Shown in pieces: positions 15,578 through 62,803 of a stretch of 64,000 nt of DNA (positions are counted from its first letter, which is position 1; every line of letters starts with the position of its first letter). Source of the stretch: Salinisphaera sp. Q1T1-3 (GTDB taxonomy: Bacteria > Pseudomonadota > Gammaproteobacteria > Nevskiales > Salinisphaeraceae). The translations under genes were made by a program, and so were the position numbers. Under the pieces are notes generated by a model that saw nothing but the letters and a program-made list of their open reading frames with translations, had not been told where the DNA came from and did not search any database. The stretch lies in NCBI RefSeq assembly GCF_003602005.1, contig NZ_QZWD01000001.1, positions 208,641 to 272,640 on the forward strand. The letters are read 5' to 3'.

Positions 15578-15721
15578 AGCGCAGTCGTCGACAAGCGCGA
15601 ACGAGCTATCGCCCGCGCGATTGGGAGAATCCGTCATGCAGTCTGCGGGAAAGGCGGCCCAACGCATCACGCGAATAACCCGTGTTTTCGTCGACTGATC
15701 GAACGATTGCCGAAGCGGCCC

Positions 15722-15748
15722 TAAAGTTTGTCGGCGAGCCGACGATAA
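15722..15748 (+). promoter_or_regulatory. Sigma-28 promoter of fliC
   Basis: TAAAGTTT (15722-15729), an 11-base spacer and GACGATAA (15741-15748), one base from the FliA consensus, 80 bases before the flagellin ATG. Confidence 0.92.
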
Positions 15749-15828
15749 AACTCCAGCGGCGGGGAAAACGGCCGCGACAACGGGTCAAGATCCCGTCACT
15801 ACCACTACGCATTGAGAGGCATCTCGAC

Positions 15829-16887
15829 ATGGCATTCACCGTCAACACCAATACGCTGTCGCTGAGCGCGCAGAACAATCTGCGTCAGTCGCAGGACAAA
15901 CTCAACACCGCGATCGAGCGTCTGTCCTCGGGCAGCAAGATCAACTCGGCCAAGGATGACGCCGCCGGCCAGGCGATCGCCAACCGCATGAGCAGTCAGA
16001 TCAGCGGTCTGCAGCAGGCTTCCTCGAATGCCAACGACGGAATCTCCCTGGCACAGACGACCGAAGGCGCGCTTGATCAGGTCAACGACAACCTGCAGCG
16101 TGTGCGTTCGCTGACGGTCCAGGCGCAGAACGGCACCAACTCGCAGTCCGACCTGCAGTCGATCCAGGACGAGATCGGCCAGCGTCTCGGTGAAATCGAC
16201 CGGATCTCCGAGCAGACGTCCTTCAACGGCACCAACGTGCTCGACGGCTCGAAAGGCAACATCAAAATCCAGGTCGGCTCCCAGGACGGCCAGCAGATCG
16301 ACATCAAACTGTCGAACACGGACTCCGATTCGCTGGGTCTGGGCAGCTTCAACGTGTCCGGGACCACATCGGTCGAGGCCGACACGAGCGGCCTGAATGG
16401 CGATCAGTCGCTGGTCTCTTACAACGACGCCGATGGCAACACGGCCTACGCCGTGGCCGACACGAGCGGTACCGACACCTCTTACAATGCCGCCAACATC
16501 AACGCGGAAACCGGCGAGGTGACTGTCGGCGACGCGTTGACCGGCGACGATGCCCCGACGAACACCACCGCTGTGGCCAACGGCGACAGCGTGAACGTGG
16601 CAACGGAAGCCACGCCCGACCCGCTGGCACAGCTGGACTCGGCGATCGGCCAGATCGACGACTTCCGCAGCAATCTCGGTGCTGTTCAGAACCGCCTCGA
16701 CTCGGCGATCAACAACATCAGCTCCACGACCACGAACCTGAGCTCGGCCCGGTCGCGTATCGAGGACACCGACTACGCCAGCGAAGTCTCGTCCATGTCC
16801 AAGGCTCAAATCCTGCAGCAGGCCGGCACCTCGGTCCTCGCCCAGGCCAACCAGTCCAACCAGGGCGTCCTGTCGCTGCTGCGTTAA
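15829..16887 (+). CDS. fliC: Flagellin FliC
   Basis: 352 residues, forming the flagellar filament. The conserved N-terminal D0/D1 region begins [18 protein letters not shown] and includes [20 protein letters not shown]. The C-terminal D1/D0 ends [20 protein letters not shown] with Leu-Leu-Arg last. The central part (about 170-265) is short, variable and rich in Asp, Thr, Ser and Gly, so the surface domain is small. GAGAGGC precedes the ATG. It is transcribed from a clear sigma-28 promoter, followed by a strong terminator, and is the only flagellin in the window. Confidence 0.95.
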
Positions 16888-22420: not shown

Positions 22421-22857
22421 ATCAATCATCGCTCGACGCCCTGATCGAAATCGCGACCGAGAAACGCGACAGTGCAGCCGCGGCGCTCGGCGAACTGCAG
22501 ACGGCGCGTTCAAAAAGCCAGGCCCAGCTCGATGCCCTGGTGCGTTATCGGGCCGAATACGGGCATCGCCTGGCCGAGGCCATGGCCGATGGCCTGTCCA
22601 TGCATCGCCTGGAAAACGACCAGCGTTTCCTGGCCGCGCTTGATGCAGCCATAGCCCAGCAGCAGGACATCGTCGCCTCCAACGAGCATCGACTGGTCGA
22701 TGGTCGACACCAGTGGCAGGACCGGCAGCGTCGATTGAAATCGTTCGATACCTTGGCTGAGCGGGGGCGACGCCACCAGGCCCAGCGCGAGGCACGGCGC
22801 GAACAACAGGACAACGACGAGGCGGCCGGACGCGCCTCGCGATGTGTTCATCTCTGA
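22417..22857 (+). CDS. fliJ: Flagellar export protein FliJ
   Basis: 146 residues, nearly all charged alpha-helix forming a long antiparallel coiled coil ([40 protein letters not shown]). FliJ sits in the centre of the FliI hexamer and escorts chaperones to FlhA. Identification rests on coiled-coil character, size and position between fliI and fliK. Confidence 0.88.
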
Positions 22858-22877
22858 CGCAACCGAGCGAGCAGATC

Positions 22878-24320
22878 ATGGCGATCAATCCGGCACTGAC
22901 AACGGCCCCTGCGCGCAATGCGTCGCCGAAAACCACGACATCGGACAAGCCGTCGAGCGCGGGAGAGGCGGATTTCTCGCACACGCTGGCAAACTCGAGA
23001 AAGACACGCGATTCAGCCCCCGGCACATCCGGGGACCGCAAGAGCGAGACCGCCGGCAAGCCGGGTGAACGGGCGGTATCGCGGCTCCATGCCGACCGCG
23101 GTACGAACCCGCCCGCCGATGCGTCGACCCGTGCCGCGCCGTCCGCGACCGGATCCACCGATCGCGACGTCGATGCCTCGGCCCACATCCGTCGTCGATA
23201 CATCAGCGGACCATCGGAGCACAACGCCGCGAGTCGCCAATTCGACGAGGGACGTGCCGCGGCCACCGCGTCGCGATCAACCGTGCCGGATCCCGGCGAG
23301 CTGGCCGCGACGACGCCTGCGCACCCGGACACGGCAGCCCAAGGCCGCATCAACGCAGCAGATAAGGCCCTGCGCGATGACGATCGCAAGCCCCACGTCG
23401 AACGCTCGCGCGAAGATTCACCGGAGCCCCATCAGCCGCCGGGCCCGATCGCTGCGCTGATCCAGGCGCCACTGATGCCGACAGCGCGCGCGGCGTCGAC
23501 GGACACAGCACCGACGGATGCCGTTCGGTCGAGCGGCGATCATGCGAAACAAGAGAGTCTGCGCGCACGCTGGCAACAGCTGATCCAGCTCGACGGCCGC
23601 CGCCCCACGACCGGCCAGGCGCTCGATGCGGGCCACGCCTCGAATCAACGCGATACGCTGGCAGCGATGCTCGATGCCGTGAGCGCCGGCAATGGCCGTA
23701 ATCCCGCTGCCACGTCCGACGATGCTGGGCCTCAGACGCGCCTCGGTATCCTGCAGGCGCATCACGCCCATAGCGACAGTGCCGGCAACGGGCCGTTGTT
23801 CAGCGCGAGCACACCGGCCCAGCCCGCCGTGACCGGACCCGGCGCGTCGCTCGCGTCAACGACGACCATTATCGGGGCCCCGATCGCCAGCGACGACTGG
23901 AACCAGGCGCTCGGCCAGCAAACGTTGCGTCTCGCCGGTCAGGGCGGGCAACAACAGGCCCAAATCCAGCTTCACCCCCGTGAACTCGGACCGCTCAGCA
24001 TCTCGGTCACAGTCAACGATCATCAACAGGCCCAGATTCATCTGGCGAGCGCGCATGCCCACGTGCGCGATGCAGTGGAAGCAGCCCTGCCCCAGCTGCG
24101 TCAATCGCTCGCCGCCGGTGGCCTTTCCCTGGGGCAGGCGTCGGTGGGTGATCAGAACAGCCAGCCGGCCTTTGCCGGCGGCGACGATTCACGCCATGCG
24201 CACCGTGGGACCCACGACGGCGATGTCACCGTGGTCAGCGATGCCACGCGTGACGCGGCCGAGCCCGTCCCGCATGCCGCGATGCCGTCAACACGCGGCG
24301 GCATCGATATCTTCGCTTGA
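22878..24320 (+). CDS. fliK: Flagellar hook-length control protein FliK
   Basis: 480 residues. FliK measures the hook and switches export specificity through FlhB. The long N-terminal part is of low complexity (Ala, Thr, Asp, Arg, Pro), as expected for a ruler. The conserved Flg_hook domain is at about residues 345-435 (LGQQTLRLAGQGGQQQAQIQ, LHPRELGPLSISVTVND, VRDAVEAALPQLRQSLAAGG). ATG at 22842, inside fliJ, would add 12 residues. A second FliK-like protein is encoded at 59283-60314. Confidence 0.9.
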   Translation: MAINPALTTAPARNASPKTTTSDKPSSAGEADFSHTLANSRKTRDSAPGTSGDRKSETAGKPGERAVSRLHADRGTNPPADASTRAAPSATGSTDRDVDASAHIRRRYISGPSEHNAASRQFDEGRAAATASRSTVPDPGELAATTPAHPDTAAQGRINAADKALRDDDRKPHVERSREDSPEPHQPPGPIAALIQAPLMPTARAASTDTAPTDAVRSSGDHAKQESLRARWQQLIQLDGRRPTTGQALDAGHASNQRDTLAAMLDAVSAGNGRNPAATSDDAGPQTRLGILQAHHAHSDSAGNGPLFSASTPAQPAVTGPGASLASTTTIIGAPIASDDWNQALGQQTLRLAGQGGQQQAQIQLHPRELGPLSISVTVNDHQQAQIHLASAHAHVRDAVEAALPQLRQSLAAGGLSLGQASVGDQNSQPAFAGGDDSRHAHRGTHDGDVTVVSDATRDAAEPVPHAAMPSTRGGIDIFA

Positions 24321-44711: not shown

Positions 44712-45128
44712 TTACTGAAAATCAACGACGAGCTGGATATGTCCGGCCCGAAGCACCGGGGATATCGGCCCTGTGCCCGGCGCGGCCAGCACCAGCCGAA
44801 AAGGCGTCGCCACTGCAAGGCCTGCGAACGCCTCCGATGTGCCGCGCGCCTTGCTTGCATCGATACAGCGTCCGGCTGCACACAAGCGCGCCGAGAGTCG
44901 CGGGCCGGGTCGATCGTAGCCATACGTCCAGTGCACCCGGTGTATGCCGTCGCCGGCGATCGGTGTGGTCGGCCTTGGCTTGAGCACCGGCGAGACATAG
45001 CGCTGGCCGTGATACCGCAGCGTCGGCAGTGCCGCTTCGGCAACCCAGCTGCCCGCCGCGGTCGCCGCAACCGGCGCGGCCAGGCCAATCGTGGCTACCG
45101 CCACCTGCCACGCTGCCAACCGGCTCAT
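44712..45128 (-). CDS. flhE: Flagellar protein FlhE
   Basis: 138 residues with a signal peptide (VAVATIGLAAPVAATAAG). The mature part matches enterobacterial FlhE over its characteristic segment: LSARLCAAGRCIDASKARGT with SEAFAGLAVATPFRLVLAAP, ending in GPISPVLRAGHIQLVVDF. The Cys pair of the family is present. FlhE is periplasmic and is reported to regulate proton flow through the export gate. The start overlaps the flhA stop by 4 bases, so gene order is flhB-flhA-flhE as in E. coli and Salmonella. Confidence 0.85.
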   Translation of the reverse strand: MSRLAAWQVAVATIGLAAPVAATAAGSWVAEAALPTLRYHGQRYVSPVLKPRPTTPIAGDGIHRVHWTYGYDRPGPRLSARLCAAGRCIDASKARGTSEAFAGLAVATPFRLVLAAPGTGPISPVLRAGHIQLVVDFQ

Positions 45129-47212
45129 CCGCCCTGGCCGATCAGACGCGCCACCCGCAAGCGCCGGTCATCGGGAATTTCCGCCTGCGAGAGCACCACC
45201 AGCGAATCGATGCTGCGACGCAGGAACCGCGCCAGCAGCGGCCGGAGGTCGTGCTTGACCACGAGCACGGGTGATACACCGCTGTCGGCCTGCGCACGTG
45301 CGGCCTGCTCGGTCTGATCGATCAGCGTCTGAGCCAGACCCGGCTCGATGCCGCCCCCGTTGCTGAGTGCCTGTGAGAGCATCTGCTCCAGTCGGGCGTC
45401 GAGACCGATGACATCGATCTGCTTGTCCGCGCCGAACCACGATTCGACGATCGCCGCGCCGAGTGCCACACGCACGGCCGCGGTCAGCGCATCGCTGTCG
45501 GTGGTGTGGGCGCCGTGCACGGCCAGCGTGTCCAGAATCCGTCGCATGTCGCGGATCGAGACCTGCTCCGCGAGCAGATTTTCGAGAATCACGGTCAGGG
45601 TCGCCAACGGAATCGGTTTCGGAACGACCTCGTCGACCAGATCGGGATAATCCTTCTTCACGCGTTCGAGCAGCTGACTGACCTCGGTCCGGCCGAGCAT
45701 CGCGGCCGCGTTCGTCGACAACAGATGATTGATATGCGTGGTCACCACTGTCGCGGCGTCGACGACCGTGAAACCGCGAGCCTCGGCGCTGTCGCGCTTG
45801 TCCGGCTCGATCCAGGTTGCCGGCAGGCCGAAGGCCGGATCCTGGCCGGCTCGGCCTTCCAGTTCACCAACGGCTCCGCCCGGATCGATCGCCAGGAACT
45901 GACCGACATAGGCTTCTCCCCGACCGATCTCGACACCGTTGAGCGTGACCCGATAATCATGGGGCGCAAAATCCAGATTGTCGCGAATATGCACGACAGG
46001 CGGCAGGAATCCGACCTCGGCCGCGAATTTCTTGCGAATGCCACGAATCCGTCGCAACAGCTCGCCATCCTGCGCCGCGTCGACCAGGCCGATCAGGCGG
46101 TAGCCGACCTCGAGGCCGAGCGGGTCCACGAGCTGCACATCATCCCAGCTCGCCTCCTCGGCCGCGGCACTGGCTGAAGCGGCTGGAACAGCTTCGCTGG
46201 TCTGTGACTCACGGGCCCGTGCTTCGCGGTGCAGCCACCAGCCAATGCCGGCCAGCGCGGCCGTGAACAGGAGAAACATCATGTTCGGCATGCCGGGCAC
46301 CAGGCCCAGCAGCCCCAGTACGCCGGCCGCCAGAAACATGACTTTCGGGTTGTTGAACAGCTGTCCGATGAGCTGCTGGCCGACATCCTGCTCGCTGGCC
46401 ACTCGTGAGACCGTCACGCCGGCGGCGGTGGAAATCACCAGGGCCGGGACCTGGGCGACGAGACCGTCGCCGATGGTCAGAATCGTATAGGTCTTGGCCG
46501 CACCGGACATGCTCATGCCGTGCTGGGCGATGCCGACGATCAGCCCACCGATGAGGTTGATCCCCATGATCAGAATGCCGGCGATGGCATCGCCACGCAC
46601 GAATTTACTGGCCCCGTCCATTGAGCCATAGAAATCGGCCTCCATGGCCGTTTCCTCGCGTCGCGACTTCGCGGTCTTTTCGTCGATCAGACCGGCATTG
46701 AGATCGGCATCGATAGCCATCTGCTTGCCGGGCAATGCGTCGAGCGTGAAGCGTGCGCCCACCTCCGCGATACGCCCGGCCCCCTTGGTGATCACCATGA
46801 AATTGATCACGATCAGGATCAGAAACACGATCAGGCCGACCGCGAGATTGCCGCCGACCAGGAACTCGCCGAACGATTCAATCACCTGTCCGGCGGCCCC
46901 GGCGCCCTCGTGGCCGTTCATCAGCACCACACGGGTCGAAGCCACGTTGAGCGACAGCCGCAGCAGCGTGGCGAACAACAAAACCGCCGGAAACGCCAGG
47001 AAATCCAGCGGTTTCGTGGTGAACATCGATACCAGCAACACCATCACCGACAGTGCGATGTTGAAAGTGAACAGCACGTCGAGGACGAACGGCGGCAGCG
47101 GCAGGATCATCATCGCCATGATCATGATGATCAGCAGCGGCCCGGCGAGCATCTTGTAGGGGCCGGGCTGGTCCAGGCCGCTGCGGCCGAGCCAGGCAGT
47201 CAAGGTATTCAT
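45125..47212 (-). CDS. flhA: Flagellar export gate protein FlhA
   Basis: 695 residues. Eight TM helices fill the N-terminal half, with the FHIPEP-type signature region (SLNVASTRVVLMNGHEGAGA, KGAGRIAEVGARFTLDALPG, KQMAIDADLNAGLIDEKTAK). The large cytoplasmic C-terminal domain, the docking platform for chaperones, includes RDMRRILDTLAVHGAHTTDS. It carries the proton-driven export step. 4-base overlaps join it to flhB and flhE. Confidence 0.97.
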   Translation of the reverse strand: MNTLTAWLGRSGLDQPGPYKMLAGPLLIIMIMAMMILPLPPFVLDVLFTFNIALSVMVLLVSMFTTKPLDFLAFPAVLLFATLLRLSLNVASTRVVLMNGHEGAGAAGQVIESFGEFLVGGNLAVGLIVFLILIVINFMVITKGAGRIAEVGARFTLDALPGKQMAIDADLNAGLIDEKTAKSRREETAMEADFYGSMDGASKFVRGDAIAGILIMGINLIGGLIVGIAQHGMSMSGAAKTYTILTIGDGLVAQVPALVISTAAGVTVSRVASEQDVGQQLIGQLFNNPKVMFLAAGVLGLLGLVPGMPNMMFLLFTAALAGIGWWLHREARARESQTSEAVPAASASAAAEEASWDDVQLVDPLGLEVGYRLIGLVDAAQDGELLRRIRGIRKKFAAEVGFLPPVVHIRDNLDFAPHDYRVTLNGVEIGRGEAYVGQFLAIDPGGAVGELEGRAGQDPAFGLPATWIEPDKRDSAEARGFTVVDAATVVTTHINHLLSTNAAAMLGRTEVSQLLERVKKDYPDLVDEVVPKPIPLATLTVILENLLAEQVSIRDMRRILDTLAVHGAHTTDSDALTAAVRVALGAAIVESWFGADKQIDVIGLDARLEQMLSQALSNGGGIEPGLAQTLIDQTEQAARAQADSGVSPVLVVKHDLRPLLARFLRRSIDSLVVLSQAEIPDDRRLRVARLIGQGG

Positions 47213-48360
47213 GAGGAGCTGTCGTCTCCGGCAGGCACCGCCAGTTCGGGCGGCACATCGATATGGTCGGGAACGGCCGGCGCGGCGTCGCCTTCGCGGC
47301 TGGCCCGATCAAGCTGATACACCCAGGCCAGGACTTCGGCCACCGCGCCGTAGAGTGCCGCCGGGATCTCGGCGTCGAGATCGGCGTGCCGATACAACGC
47401 GCGCGCCAGTGGCGGTGCCGCCAGGCGAGGAATGTGATGTTCAGCCGCCCTTTCGCGAATACGCGTGGCGACCTCATCCGCGCCCTTGGCCACGACGCGC
47501 GGGGCGCCCATTCGATCCCCGTCGTAGGCCAGTGCCACCGCGTAGGTACTCGGGTTGGTGACGACCACATCGGCCTCCGGCACCGCCGCCATCATGCGCT
47601 GTCGTGCCATGCGCTGCTGCTGCTCGCGAACACGTGCCTTGATCTGCGGGTCGCCCTCGTTCTCTTTGTTCTCGTCCTTGATCTCCTTGAGGCTCATGCG
47701 CAGCTTTTTCTGGTGGTTCCAGAGTTGGAACGGCACGTCGATGCCCACCACCACCACAAATACCAGCACCATCAGCGCACAGCAGAAGATGACCAGGCGC
47801 AGGGCATGCACGATCGCAGTCGCCGGATCCGCACCGGCCAGATCCAGCAGTTCACCGATATGAACGTAGACGAACCCGGCAGCCACGGAGCCGATCAACA
47901 CCGACTTGGCTACGGCCTTGGCCAGTTCCGCAACGGCATTGGCCGAAAAGACGCGCCCCAGCCCCTTGATCGCATTGAGCCGGTTGACGTCGAACTTCAG
48001 CGACTTGGCCGAGATCAGCCACCCACCGAGCAGATTAGGCGCAACGATTGCGACGACCACCAGCACGACGAATAACGGCGCGATCCCACGGGCGACCGCA
48101 AAGAACTGTGCCACCACATGCGACATCATGCGCGCCGGGTCATGTGCAATGGCTGGACTGAAGCCGAGCCCGGAGCGCCCGACGGTCATCACCGAGTCGA
48201 TCAGCCAGCCGGAGGTCAACCAGAGTCCGGCGAGACCGGTGGCCAGCAGCAAAAACGTGGTCAGCTCGCGCGAACGGGCGACCTGCCCTTCCTCACGCGC
48301 CTTTTCCAGGCGCTGCGGTGTCGGGTCTTCTGTCTTTTCCTCGTCGCTGCCCTCGGCCAT
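47209..48360 (-). CDS. flhB: Flagellar export switch protein FlhB, unusual cleavage motif
   Basis: 383 residues. Charged N-terminus (EEKTEDPTPQRLEKAREEGQ), four TM helices, and a cytoplasmic domain with MSLKEIKDENKENEGDPQIK leading to VVVTNPSTYAVALAYDGDRM. FlhB cleaves itself between Asn and Pro of a nearly invariant NPTH; here the motif is NPST. Asn-Pro is kept, but Thr becomes Ser and His becomes Thr. The family APRVVAKG motif follows. It switches export from hook to filament proteins with FliK. A separate FlhB C-terminal homologue is at 58978-59286. Confidence 0.96.
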   Translation of the reverse strand: MAEGSDEEKTEDPTPQRLEKAREEGQVARSRELTTFLLLATGLAGLWLTSGWLIDSVMTVGRSGLGFSPAIAHDPARMMSHVVAQFFAVARGIAPLFVVLVVVAIVAPNLLGGWLISAKSLKFDVNRLNAIKGLGRVFSANAVAELAKAVAKSVLIGSVAAGFVYVHIGELLDLAGADPATAIVHALRLVIFCCALMVLVFVVVVGIDVPFQLWNHQKKLRMSLKEIKDENKENEGDPQIKARVREQQQRMARQRMMAAVPEADVVVTNPSTYAVALAYDGDRMGAPRVVAKGADEVATRIRERAAEHHIPRLAAPPLARALYRHADLDAEIPAALYGAVAEVLAWVYQLDRASREGDAAPAVPDHIDVPPELAVPAGDDSSS

Positions 48361-58977: not shown

Positions 58978-59286
58978 TCAATGGTTCGCCGCCCTATCGA
59001 GCTCGTAAACCCAAGCGAGCAATTCGGCAACGGCAACGTAGAGCGCCGGAGGGATATGCGCGTCCAGGTCGACCTGAGCGAGCAGTCGCACGAGTTCCCG
59101 ATCCGCGTGGACCGGCAGATCGTGAGTTTCGGCCCGTGCGATGATCGCATCGGCGATATCGCCGTATCCCTTGGCAACGACACGAGGCGCGTCGTCGCCG
59201 GTTTCATAACGCAACGCCACCGCATGCCGGCGCGCGGATGCAGACGGCGACTCGTCGGCGACGTGTTCGGGTTCGTCGTCGCTCAT
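58978..59286 (-). CDS. FlhB C-terminal-domain homologue (FlhX-like)
   Basis: 102 residues corresponding to the cytoplasmic part of FlhB after the cleavage site: RRHAVALRYETGDDAPRVVA then KGYGDIADAIIARAETHDLP and VDLDAHIPPALYVAVAELLA, closely parallel to the FlhB tail encoded at 47.2 kb. The membrane part and NPTH are absent. Such proteins can substitute for cleaved FlhB in Helicobacter. It overlaps the FliK-like gene by 4 bases, a common pairing. Confidence 0.9.
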   Translation of the reverse strand: MSDDEPEHVADESPSASARRHAVALRYETGDDAPRVVAKGYGDIADAIIARAETHDLPVHADRELVRLLAQVDLDAHIPPALYVAVAELLAWVYELDRAANH

Positions 59287-60314
59287 GTCGCCGACTCGCT
59301 GATCAGGCGCACCGTGGCCTCACCCAGGCCGGCGTCCCGCAGACGGCGACGAAGCGTCTCGCGGTCCGCGGCGAGCAGGCGCCGGCCGGTATCGGATTCG
59401 GTCCATACGTCGATCTCGACGGCCTCGGTGCCGAGACGCAGCTTCGCCTCGACCAGCCCGAGCCCCGGCATCGTCAAGGACAACGACGTGATCGCCTCAT
59501 GGGCCGTCGTCGGCTCAGGCGTGGCGGCCTCGCCATGGCGCTCCGGCGGCTGCTCGATGGACCAGCGCATGGGCGTGCCGGACCAGGCCTCGCCTTGCCA
59601 TTGGAAGACGTTACCAGCCAGTAACTCGAGCTGCTGACGCACCAGCGGCGCAAGGCGGGGGTCGATCGTTGTGTTGGTCCCGCCGGCATCGCGCGCCGCA
59701 TGCCGGTCGTTGGCCGTCCTTTCACTACCCGACGTCGCGGCCTGCTCAAGGCGCATCTCGGCTTCTCGCATTACGCGCGTGCGGGACATCTCGCCGCGAA
59801 CCAGTGCCGCGAGATGCGACTCATAGAACAGACCGCTGCCCGTGACCTGCTGGGCCAGCATCGTGGCAAGAGCCGTCGGCTGGGGACGCCCAGCACTCAG
59901 AGGGTGTGCCCCATGGACCGGCGTCGACGTGGCGTTATCGCCAATCACGCCGAGCAGTCGGGCCAATGTCCCGCCCGTGCGTGACAAATGCAGACTCACC
60001 GAGCGTGCCCTGCCATCGACCGCTGGCCCGGCGCCCTCACCGGCTTGCTGGCCGGGGACACGAGTCTCATCCGAGGTCGGTATCAACCCGCGATTGCGGC
60101 TCGTCGCTGTTCGCGTCGCGGCCCCACTGTCTGCTGTGCCCGCGCGCGCCTGTGCCTGCTGCTGTTCCGGCAACGCGCCCGAAACCTTACCGTCGATCGC
60201 CCTTATCGCCGACAGGCGAGATTCACCGGCCCGCTCTCCGACACGCGCGAGATCTCCGGCCCGGCCGGATATACGCGATAACAGCGTGTCGAGTACCGGC
60301 GTAATCGTGCCCAA
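59283..60314 (-). CDS. Second FliK-like hook-length control protein
   Basis: 343 residues. The N-terminal two thirds are of low complexity (Ala, Arg, Gly, Thr). The C-terminal 110 residues have a Flg_hook-like pattern (LLAGNVFQWQGEAWSGTPMR, ITSLSLTMPGLGLVEAKLRL, LAADRETLRRRLRDAGLGEA). The pairing with the FlhB-tail gene supports a role in export switching or hook length. Weak similarity only; it is distinct from the canonical fliK at 22.9 kb. Confidence 0.7.
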   Translation of the reverse strand: MGTITPVLDTLLSRISGRAGDLARVGERAGESRLSAIRAIDGKVSGALPEQQQAQARAGTADSGAATRTATSRNRGLIPTSDETRVPGQQAGEGAGPAVDGRARSVSLHLSRTGGTLARLLGVIGDNATSTPVHGAHPLSAGRPQPTALATMLAQQVTGSGLFYESHLAALVRGEMSRTRVMREAEMRLEQAATSGSERTANDRHAARDAGGTNTTIDPRLAPLVRQQLELLAGNVFQWQGEAWSGTPMRWSIEQPPERHGEAATPEPTTAHEAITSLSLTMPGLGLVEAKLRLGTEAVEIDVWTESDTGRRLLAADRETLRRRLRDAGLGEATVRLISESAT

Positions 60315-61372: not shown

Positions 61373-62803
61373 TCAGCTCGATGACGAGCCATTGAGCTGA
61401 GACAGCTGGGTTGTCAGATAGGATTGGGTGGAGTTCAGACTGGACATCATCGAGTCGAGCTGAACAAATTGCTTGCGATAGCGTTCGACCGTTGCGTCGA
61501 TCGAATCCCGCATGTTGGCGATACGTTTGTCGACGTCGTCGATACTGCGCTGCAGACCGTCGCGCGCGGTACTCAACAGGCCGTTGTCATCGGTCATGCG
61601 CGCGATCGTCGCGGACAGGCCGCCGGCGATACCGGCGTTCTCGTCGTCGCTGCCGGCATCACCGCCGAACAGCGCCGCCACGCCGTTCGGATTATCGGTC
61701 AGCGCGGCATCGAGCTGGTCTTCGTCCTCGATCTTGAGCGTGCCGTCGGTTTGCAGAGAGATACCAATATCGCCGAGCACGGAGAACGCCCCGCCGGTAG
61801 TCGCCTCCGTGAGGCTGGCATGTAGCTCCGACTCGACCGAGCGCGCGGTGGAATCCCCCAGCAGAACACCGTTACCCGAAGCATCCGCGCCGTTGAATGC
61901 CGTCAGGCTGTCGGCTCTCTTCTGATAACTGTTGTAGGCAGAGACGAAACTCTTGATCGCGCCAAGGATCTGGTCGTTGTCGCGCGTGGTCGTGACACGA
62001 CTGGGCTCGGTCGTTGTCGAGTGCAACGTCAGAGTCACGCCATCGATCGCATTGTCGACGGTGTTGCTGTTACGGGTGACCGATACCCCGTTGACCGTCA
62101 ACTTGGCATCGCGGGCCGCCACGGTCTCGCGCATGCTGCCCTGGCCGCTCTGGCTGTCGTAATCCACGAGATCGGCCAGCGGCGTGCCGGATGCGCCGGC
62201 GGCATCGGTGGCCTTGACCGTGATCTGATTGGCGGTACCGCTGTTATCGGATGACAACACCAGATGGAACGGCGTGTCGCTGCCGTCGTCGATGATCGAT
62301 GCGGAAACACCGGCGCCCGCGCCGTTGATCGCATCTCGGATATCGGTCAGCGAGCTCCCGCCTTTCGGTAGATTGATCTCGGTGGCATCGGCGTCCCCGA
62401 TCGCAATCGAGATCTTGCCACCGCCCCCGATGTCCGCATCCTTGTCGGCCACCGGTTCGCCGACCAGCGACTGGGCGCGGGCAAGCTGGCTGACCGAGAC
62501 ATCATAGCCGCCGGCCACCGCCGCCTGATCAGTCGTTGCCGTGACCGCATCGCCTTCCACCCCGACCTTGGCTGCGTGATACAGATCGGAACCGGCCAGC
62601 TTGTCCGCCGCGTCCTTCAGATTCGTCAGTGAATTGGTGAGCGCGCCGTAGGCGCTGAACTGTGTGTTGAAGCTCGCCTTGCGATTCTGCAGCGGCACCA
62701 GGCGGTTCTGCTCGTTCGCCTTGAGATTGTCCAGCAACGAACTCAGATCGAGCCCGGAGCCGACGCCGAGCGACGACAGCGTGGAAGACGAGATACTGGC
62801 CAT
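61373..62803 (-). CDS. fliD: Filament cap protein FliD (HAP2)
   Basis: 476 residues. N-terminus LSSLGVGSGLDLSSLLDNLK; middle VTATTDQAAVAGGYDVSVSQ; C-terminus VERYRKQFVQLDSMMSSLNS, QSYLTTQLSQLNGSSSS, a typical coiled coil. It caps the filament and inserts flagellin. It heads fliDST and has a sigma-28 promoter 60 bases upstream. Confidence 0.96.
   Translation of the reverse strand: MASISSSTLSSLGVGSGLDLSSLLDNLKANEQNRLVPLQNRKASFNTQFSAYGALTNSLTNLKDAADKLAGSDLYHAAKVGVEGDAVTATTDQAAVAGGYDVSVSQLARAQSLVGEPVADKDADIGGGGKISIAIGDADATEINLPKGGSSLTDIRDAINGAGAGVSASIIDDGSDTPFHLVLSSDNSGTANQITVKATDAAGASGTPLADLVDYDSQSGQGSMRETVAARDAKLTVNGVSVTRNSNTVDNAIDGVTLTLHSTTTEPSRVTTTRDNDQILGAIKSFVSAYNSYQKRADSLTAFNGADASGNGVLLGDSTARSVESELHASLTEATTGGAFSVLGDIGISLQTDGTLKIEDEDQLDAALTDNPNGVAALFGGDAGSDDENAGIAGGLSATIARMTDDNGLLSTARDGLQRSIDDVDKRIANMRDSIDATVERYRKQFVQLDSMMSSLNSTQSYLTTQLSQLNGSSSS

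Follow-up and report, generated by a model that had tools for sequence, protein, structure and literature searches.

The flhB locus

The window, the whole 64,000-nucleotide stretch of Salinisphaera sp. Q1T1-3 DNA analysed here, carries on its reverse strand an FlhB reading frame of 383 amino acids containing ADVVVTNPSTYAVALAY; the forward strand at this position does not code for FlhB. The gene lies within a flagellar gene cluster, with flhA, flg, che, mot, flhDC, fliS and fliD around it on the same strand (Table 1), and its product passes the flagellar model TIGR00328, scoring 285.5 bits with the injectisome model TIGR01404, under the cut-off of 358 for that model. FlhB residues 269 to 273 read N-P-S-T-Y, encoded by AAC CCG AGT ACC TAC, with codons 269 to 272 running from window position 47556 down to 47545. 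The Asn-Pro of the cleavage point (AAC CCG) is present, and the full NPTH autocleavage motif is replaced by NPST, as a first-pass annotation made from the sequence alone had reported; the minus-strand codons bear this out in an intact gene. A pseudogene is not supported, given the intact frame and low dN/dS. Across the 3.87-Mb genome (59 contigs), the FlhB/SctU family is represented by one full-length member, FlhB, and one short member, the FlhX-like protein described below (FlhX), these two being the only family matches, so that a second full FlhB or SctU is likewise not supported.

Table 1. Features of the window discussed in the text, in order of position.
Feature	Position	Strand	Product	Evidence
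Flagellin gene, late export substrate	15682–16887	+	401-aa open frame	PF00669, 158.9 bits; match at contig C11:224481-224894, window 15841–16254
fliK of the fli cluster	22842–24320	+	492 aa	PF02120 (Flg_hook), 70.9 bits
flhA, adjoins flhB	45125–47212	-	695 aa	PF00771; TIGR01398, 893 bits (cut-off 772.1)
flhB, intact	47209–48360	-	383 aa	Translation; PF01312, 407.6 bits; TIGR00328, 384.6 bits (cut-off 349.25)
flhB codons 269–272	47545–47556	-	Asn-Pro-Ser-Thr, replacing Asn-Pro-Thr-His	AAC CCG AGT ACC
flhB codon 130	47971–47973	-	Ala
flhX, FlhX-like free FlhB C-terminal domain (flhB_rel)	58978–59286	-	102 aa	PF01312 profile positions 261–335 only
Second FliK-domain gene	59283–60314	-	343 aa	PF02120 (Flg_hook), 35.9 bits (cut-off 29.8)
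fliD, filament cap, late export substrate, intact	61373–62803	-		NF005955, 413.2 bits (cut-off 387)

The cleavage motif among FlhB homologues

The motif was surveyed in 295 other FlhB/SctU sequences, comprising seven FlhBs of the genus, 79 of 80 named loci and one sequence from genome G014, to which the order contributed 62 and the class 146. The named loci were the best 80 of 505 and hence lean towards close relatives (L019 was omitted, being the same DNA as L008); the order set holds every listed match except G053:C3, and 150 of the class genomes with an FlhB match, which number at least 171, were examined. Five of the 295 sequences, each scoring below 230 bits, are probable SctU proteins, and the His is present in every one of them. 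Asn-Pro is invariant throughout the set (295/295), and the exact NPTH motif occurs in 251, the other 44 having another motif, so the full motif, judged by these homologues, is in practice not a defining feature of FlhB. Residue 271 is variable: T in 254, S in 15, E in nine, D in four, N and V in three each, M, I and Q in two each, and R in one. Residue 272, by contrast with Asn-Pro and its full invariance, departs from His in a handful of sequences, with H in 290, R in three, D in one, Q in one, and T in none. The first-pass claim that the conserved motif has lost its His here thus holds, the residue being nearly invariant, its loss real and the remainder of the gene intact. That 290 of 295 homologues keep His272 indicates that this residue matters for something, and the rarity of Thr272 in the survey (0/295, with 5/295 for any non-His residue) is more than chance.

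The five FlhBs without the His all keep Asn-Pro in an open frame. Their motifs are NPTR in Microbulbifer sp. HZ11 (L027), NPTD in the metagenome bin GSL.Bin27 (L083, a low-coverage contig according to the record title), NPTQ in L300, which is genome G232, and NPVR in two species of one genus, L257 (genome G177) and L225 (genome G283). An earlier, smaller tally had counted four non-His motifs in 258 sequences. The NPVR pair is identical at 334 of 369 FlhB positions, with a dN of 0.047 and a dS of 0.62, and since the motif is common to both species, a His-less FlhB has outlived at least one speciation, under what these rates point to as purifying selection. Loss of the His is, on the evidence of this survey, rare but recurrent in nature. 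When the window FlhB is compared with the residues that more than 90% of the 290 higher-scoring sequences share, it departs at only two sites, P130A and H272T. Codon 130 encodes Ala where 282 of the 290 homologues have Pro, and Val is found there in the relative G012; nothing was made of this rare residue, since G012 also departs from Pro. An apparent cluster of His losses at residues 217, 231, and 272 in the genus alignment was likewise set aside, as the larger set shows wide variation at both 217 and 231, leaving 272 as the only residue that stands out.

Origin of the two substitutions

Of the 14 genus genomes, eight carry FlhB, among them that of the window. The two genomes closest to it, G001 and G010 (the sisters), have FlhBs 82 and 81% identical to that of the window and carry NPSH (AGC CAT and AGC CAC, respectively), the other five FlhB-bearing genomes of the genus having NPTH. 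The most parsimonious reading is that Thr271 changed to Ser before the three lineages split and that His272 changed to Thr on the window's own branch. The first-pass annotation had described two codon changes relative to NPTH; both codons do differ, but T271S is common to G001 and G010, and H272T alone is private, which rules out both codons having changed together in the window genome. Its remark that a single sequencing error would not suffice remains sound, as two bases must change to turn the CAT or CAC of the sisters into ACC. The six genomes of the genus with no FlhB match include four that are at least 97% complete and two that are less than 90% complete, which suggests that flagella have been repeatedly lost or are absent in the genus.

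A probably tolerated variant of the autocleavage loop

Published work describes FlhB as cutting itself between Asn269 and Pro270, with N269A blocking cleavage and filament export and P270A slowing cleavage (PMC7771051; PMC3640470). In HrcU of Xanthomonas campestris pv. vesicatoria, N264A abolishes detectable cleavage and P265A reduces it greatly, and the T266A and H267A mutants show more uncleaved protein, cleavage that is only slightly affected, and partial complementation (PMC3040844). The NPTH motif is often presented, for example in PMC4875606, as conserved across FlhB/YscU proteins, and the FlhB of Shewanella putrefaciens, with NPEH, is reported to be cleaved (PMC7771051). A literature search, outside which most subscription papers lay, found no published test of Thr at position 272, no flagellar His272 mutant, and no report of natural non-His FlhB motifs.

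These systems resemble the window FlhB in different respects. The Salmonella-type NPTH protein (closest solved chain 36hu_K1, E 3.8e-107) aligns over the full length with Asn-Pro kept; the likeness extends, by family match, to the four-helix membrane part and the cytoplasmic domain, with the window gene adjoining flhA, and the difference lies in the two residues that follow Asn-Pro, Ser-Thr rather than Thr-His. NPEH and NPSH proteins share with the window FlhB a residue other than Thr at 271, but they retain His272 where the window has Thr. The surveyed NPTR, NPTD, NPVR, and NPTQ proteins are alike in keeping Asn-Pro without His272, although they have Arg, Asp, or Gln in its place. The HrcU T266A and H267A mutants are changed at the same two motif positions in a homologue, though in an injectisome protein with engineered Ala at single positions, whereas the window FlhB departs at both.

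Taken together, the gene most probably encodes an ordinary, functional flagellar FlhB with a rare natural variant of the autocleavage loop, a reading to which a probability of roughly three in four is given. Because Asn-Pro is kept, cleavage would most likely still take place, whether as fast as usual or more slowly: the protein would still cut itself at Asn269-Pro270 through cyclisation of Asn269, Thr272 in place of His272 would leave the cleavage rate normal or modestly lower it, and FliK would still trigger the switch from hook to filament export. Some cost of losing the His is suggested by its near-invariance and by the HrcU mutants, which are partly defective. A loss harmful enough to need compensation, as the first-pass annotation had implied, is not supported, given the slight effect reported for T266A and H267A in HrcU and the recurrence of His-less FlhBs (5/295). 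H272T is consistent with a known protein carrying a variant that is tolerated, the oddity being real but minor, and the biological effect is probably small.

Natural FlhBs that keep Asn-Pro and have Thr, Arg, Asp, or Gln in place of the His nonetheless offer ready-made tests of the role of this residue, for which the candidates are that it speeds cleavage, that it sets the shape of the cleaved loop for FliK, or that it is dispensable. A 2026 study proposes that the switch requires physical removal of the FlhB domain after cleavage (PMC13344023). Under this model, the rate of cleavage would be relevant and worth measuring in natural His-less FlhBs.

State of the flagellar system

Another explanation is that the flagellar system of this lineage is decaying and that H272T is an early damaging change, leading to polyhooks or poor switching. 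The lack of an FlhB match in six of 14 genus genomes (two of the six being less than 90% complete) and P130A, as a second departure from the >90% consensus, would fit such a course, but the relative G012, which has Val at residue 130, bears motility genes, and the part of the cluster that was examined is intact. No internal stop was found in the 24 flagellar and chemotaxis genes tested in the window, from flgJ to fliD (35082–62803), which are free of frame breaks, and the flagellin gene is intact. Single stops in CheA and MotA of G001 lie at the edges of the aligned segments and are alignment overruns. On the forward strand, a check of the fli cluster covering fliF, G, H, I, J, K, L, M, N, P, and R found all of them (fliE, fliO, fliQ, and flgM lay outside this check), and flgK, a flagellin-domain gene at the flgL position, and flagellin are also present.

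Rates of change point the same way. FlhB is a conserved protein under selection: compared with the sisters, its dN/dS is low, at 0.11 and 0.14, within the range of seven other genes compared with the sisters (0.05–0.15 where obtained, FlhX lacking a usable dS in one of its two comparisons), although such tests average over the time since the split and are compatible with a recent loss of function. With G012 as the outgroup, FlhB has 17 private residues in the window genome versus 11 and six in the sisters, and 22 other cluster genes (without cheD, which has no match in G012) have 284 versus 66 and 102. The private changes of FlhB are not in excess relative to these genes (Fisher p 0.15), so FlhB does not appear to have accelerated on the window branch; faster evolution there is supported by neither the private-change nor the dN/dS test. 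Decay of the system is thus considered unlikely.

An error of sequencing or assembly behind the ACC codon, or a variant confined to one strain, is very unlikely: the observation does rest on one genome, with no second genome of the species in the collections searched, but two adjacent bases differ with the frame intact, in an assembly of 59 contigs that is 99.97% complete and on a contig of 489,868 bases.

FlhX and the second FliK-domain protein

FlhX is a short protein covering the FlhB C-terminal domain alone. Its score of 90.7 bits lies below the curated cut-off of 117.35 for TIGR00789, still its top-scoring NCBIfam model, and all 42 genomes sampled from the class fall below this cut-off too. 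It resembles flhB_rel of TIGR00789 and, by citation, Helicobacter pylori HP1575 in being short and consisting only of the C-terminal domain that follows the cleavage loop in FlhB; the FlhX of the window lineage differs in that its gene stands beside a FliK-domain gene and in its score below the cut-off.

The first-pass annotation had proposed that the free domain might compensate for NPST. In its strongest form, this idea would have FlhB cleaving inefficiently and FlhX taking over in trans, as a 'spare part' in the manner of HP1575. FlhX is indeed present in the window, and a trans role of the free FlhB C-terminal domain in H. pylori is cited in the discussion of PMC3040844, but the distribution of FlhX argues against this. 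Within the genus, FlhX accompanies FlhB in all eight genomes that have the latter, including the five with NPTH, and in the class sample, a second TIGR00789 match beside FlhB is found in 33 of the 42 genomes, including 31 of the 39 with His272. Among the five other genomes with a non-His FlhB, a clear FlhX is found in G177 and G283, G450 has a weak second match of 25.7 bits, and the search found none in G232, with NPTQ, or in G451. NPST is not common in the lineage without FlhX, having been observed in the window alone, where FlhX is present. FlhX does not, on this distribution, track the loss of the His, and it shows just two private changes in 82 sites. A takeover by FlhX is hence most improbable, and FlhX as a response to NPST is rejected; it would instead be a separate, older, lineage-wide component, not a repair for the loss of the His. 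By analogy with HP1575, a trans role of FlhX is possible in general and would not be specific to the NPST variant.

Just as improbable is a slow-cleaving switch, in which the Ser-Thr loop would delay release of the C-terminal domain, the cleavage rate would partly set the time or the length of hook growth, and FlhX with its partner FliK-domain protein would supply a second, cleavage-free C-terminal domain. The gene for this partner, separate from the fliK of the fli cluster, overlaps with its end the start of flhX by four bases, and its product, at 48.6 and 47.0% identity to the sisters, ranks with the least conserved proteins encoded in the cluster.
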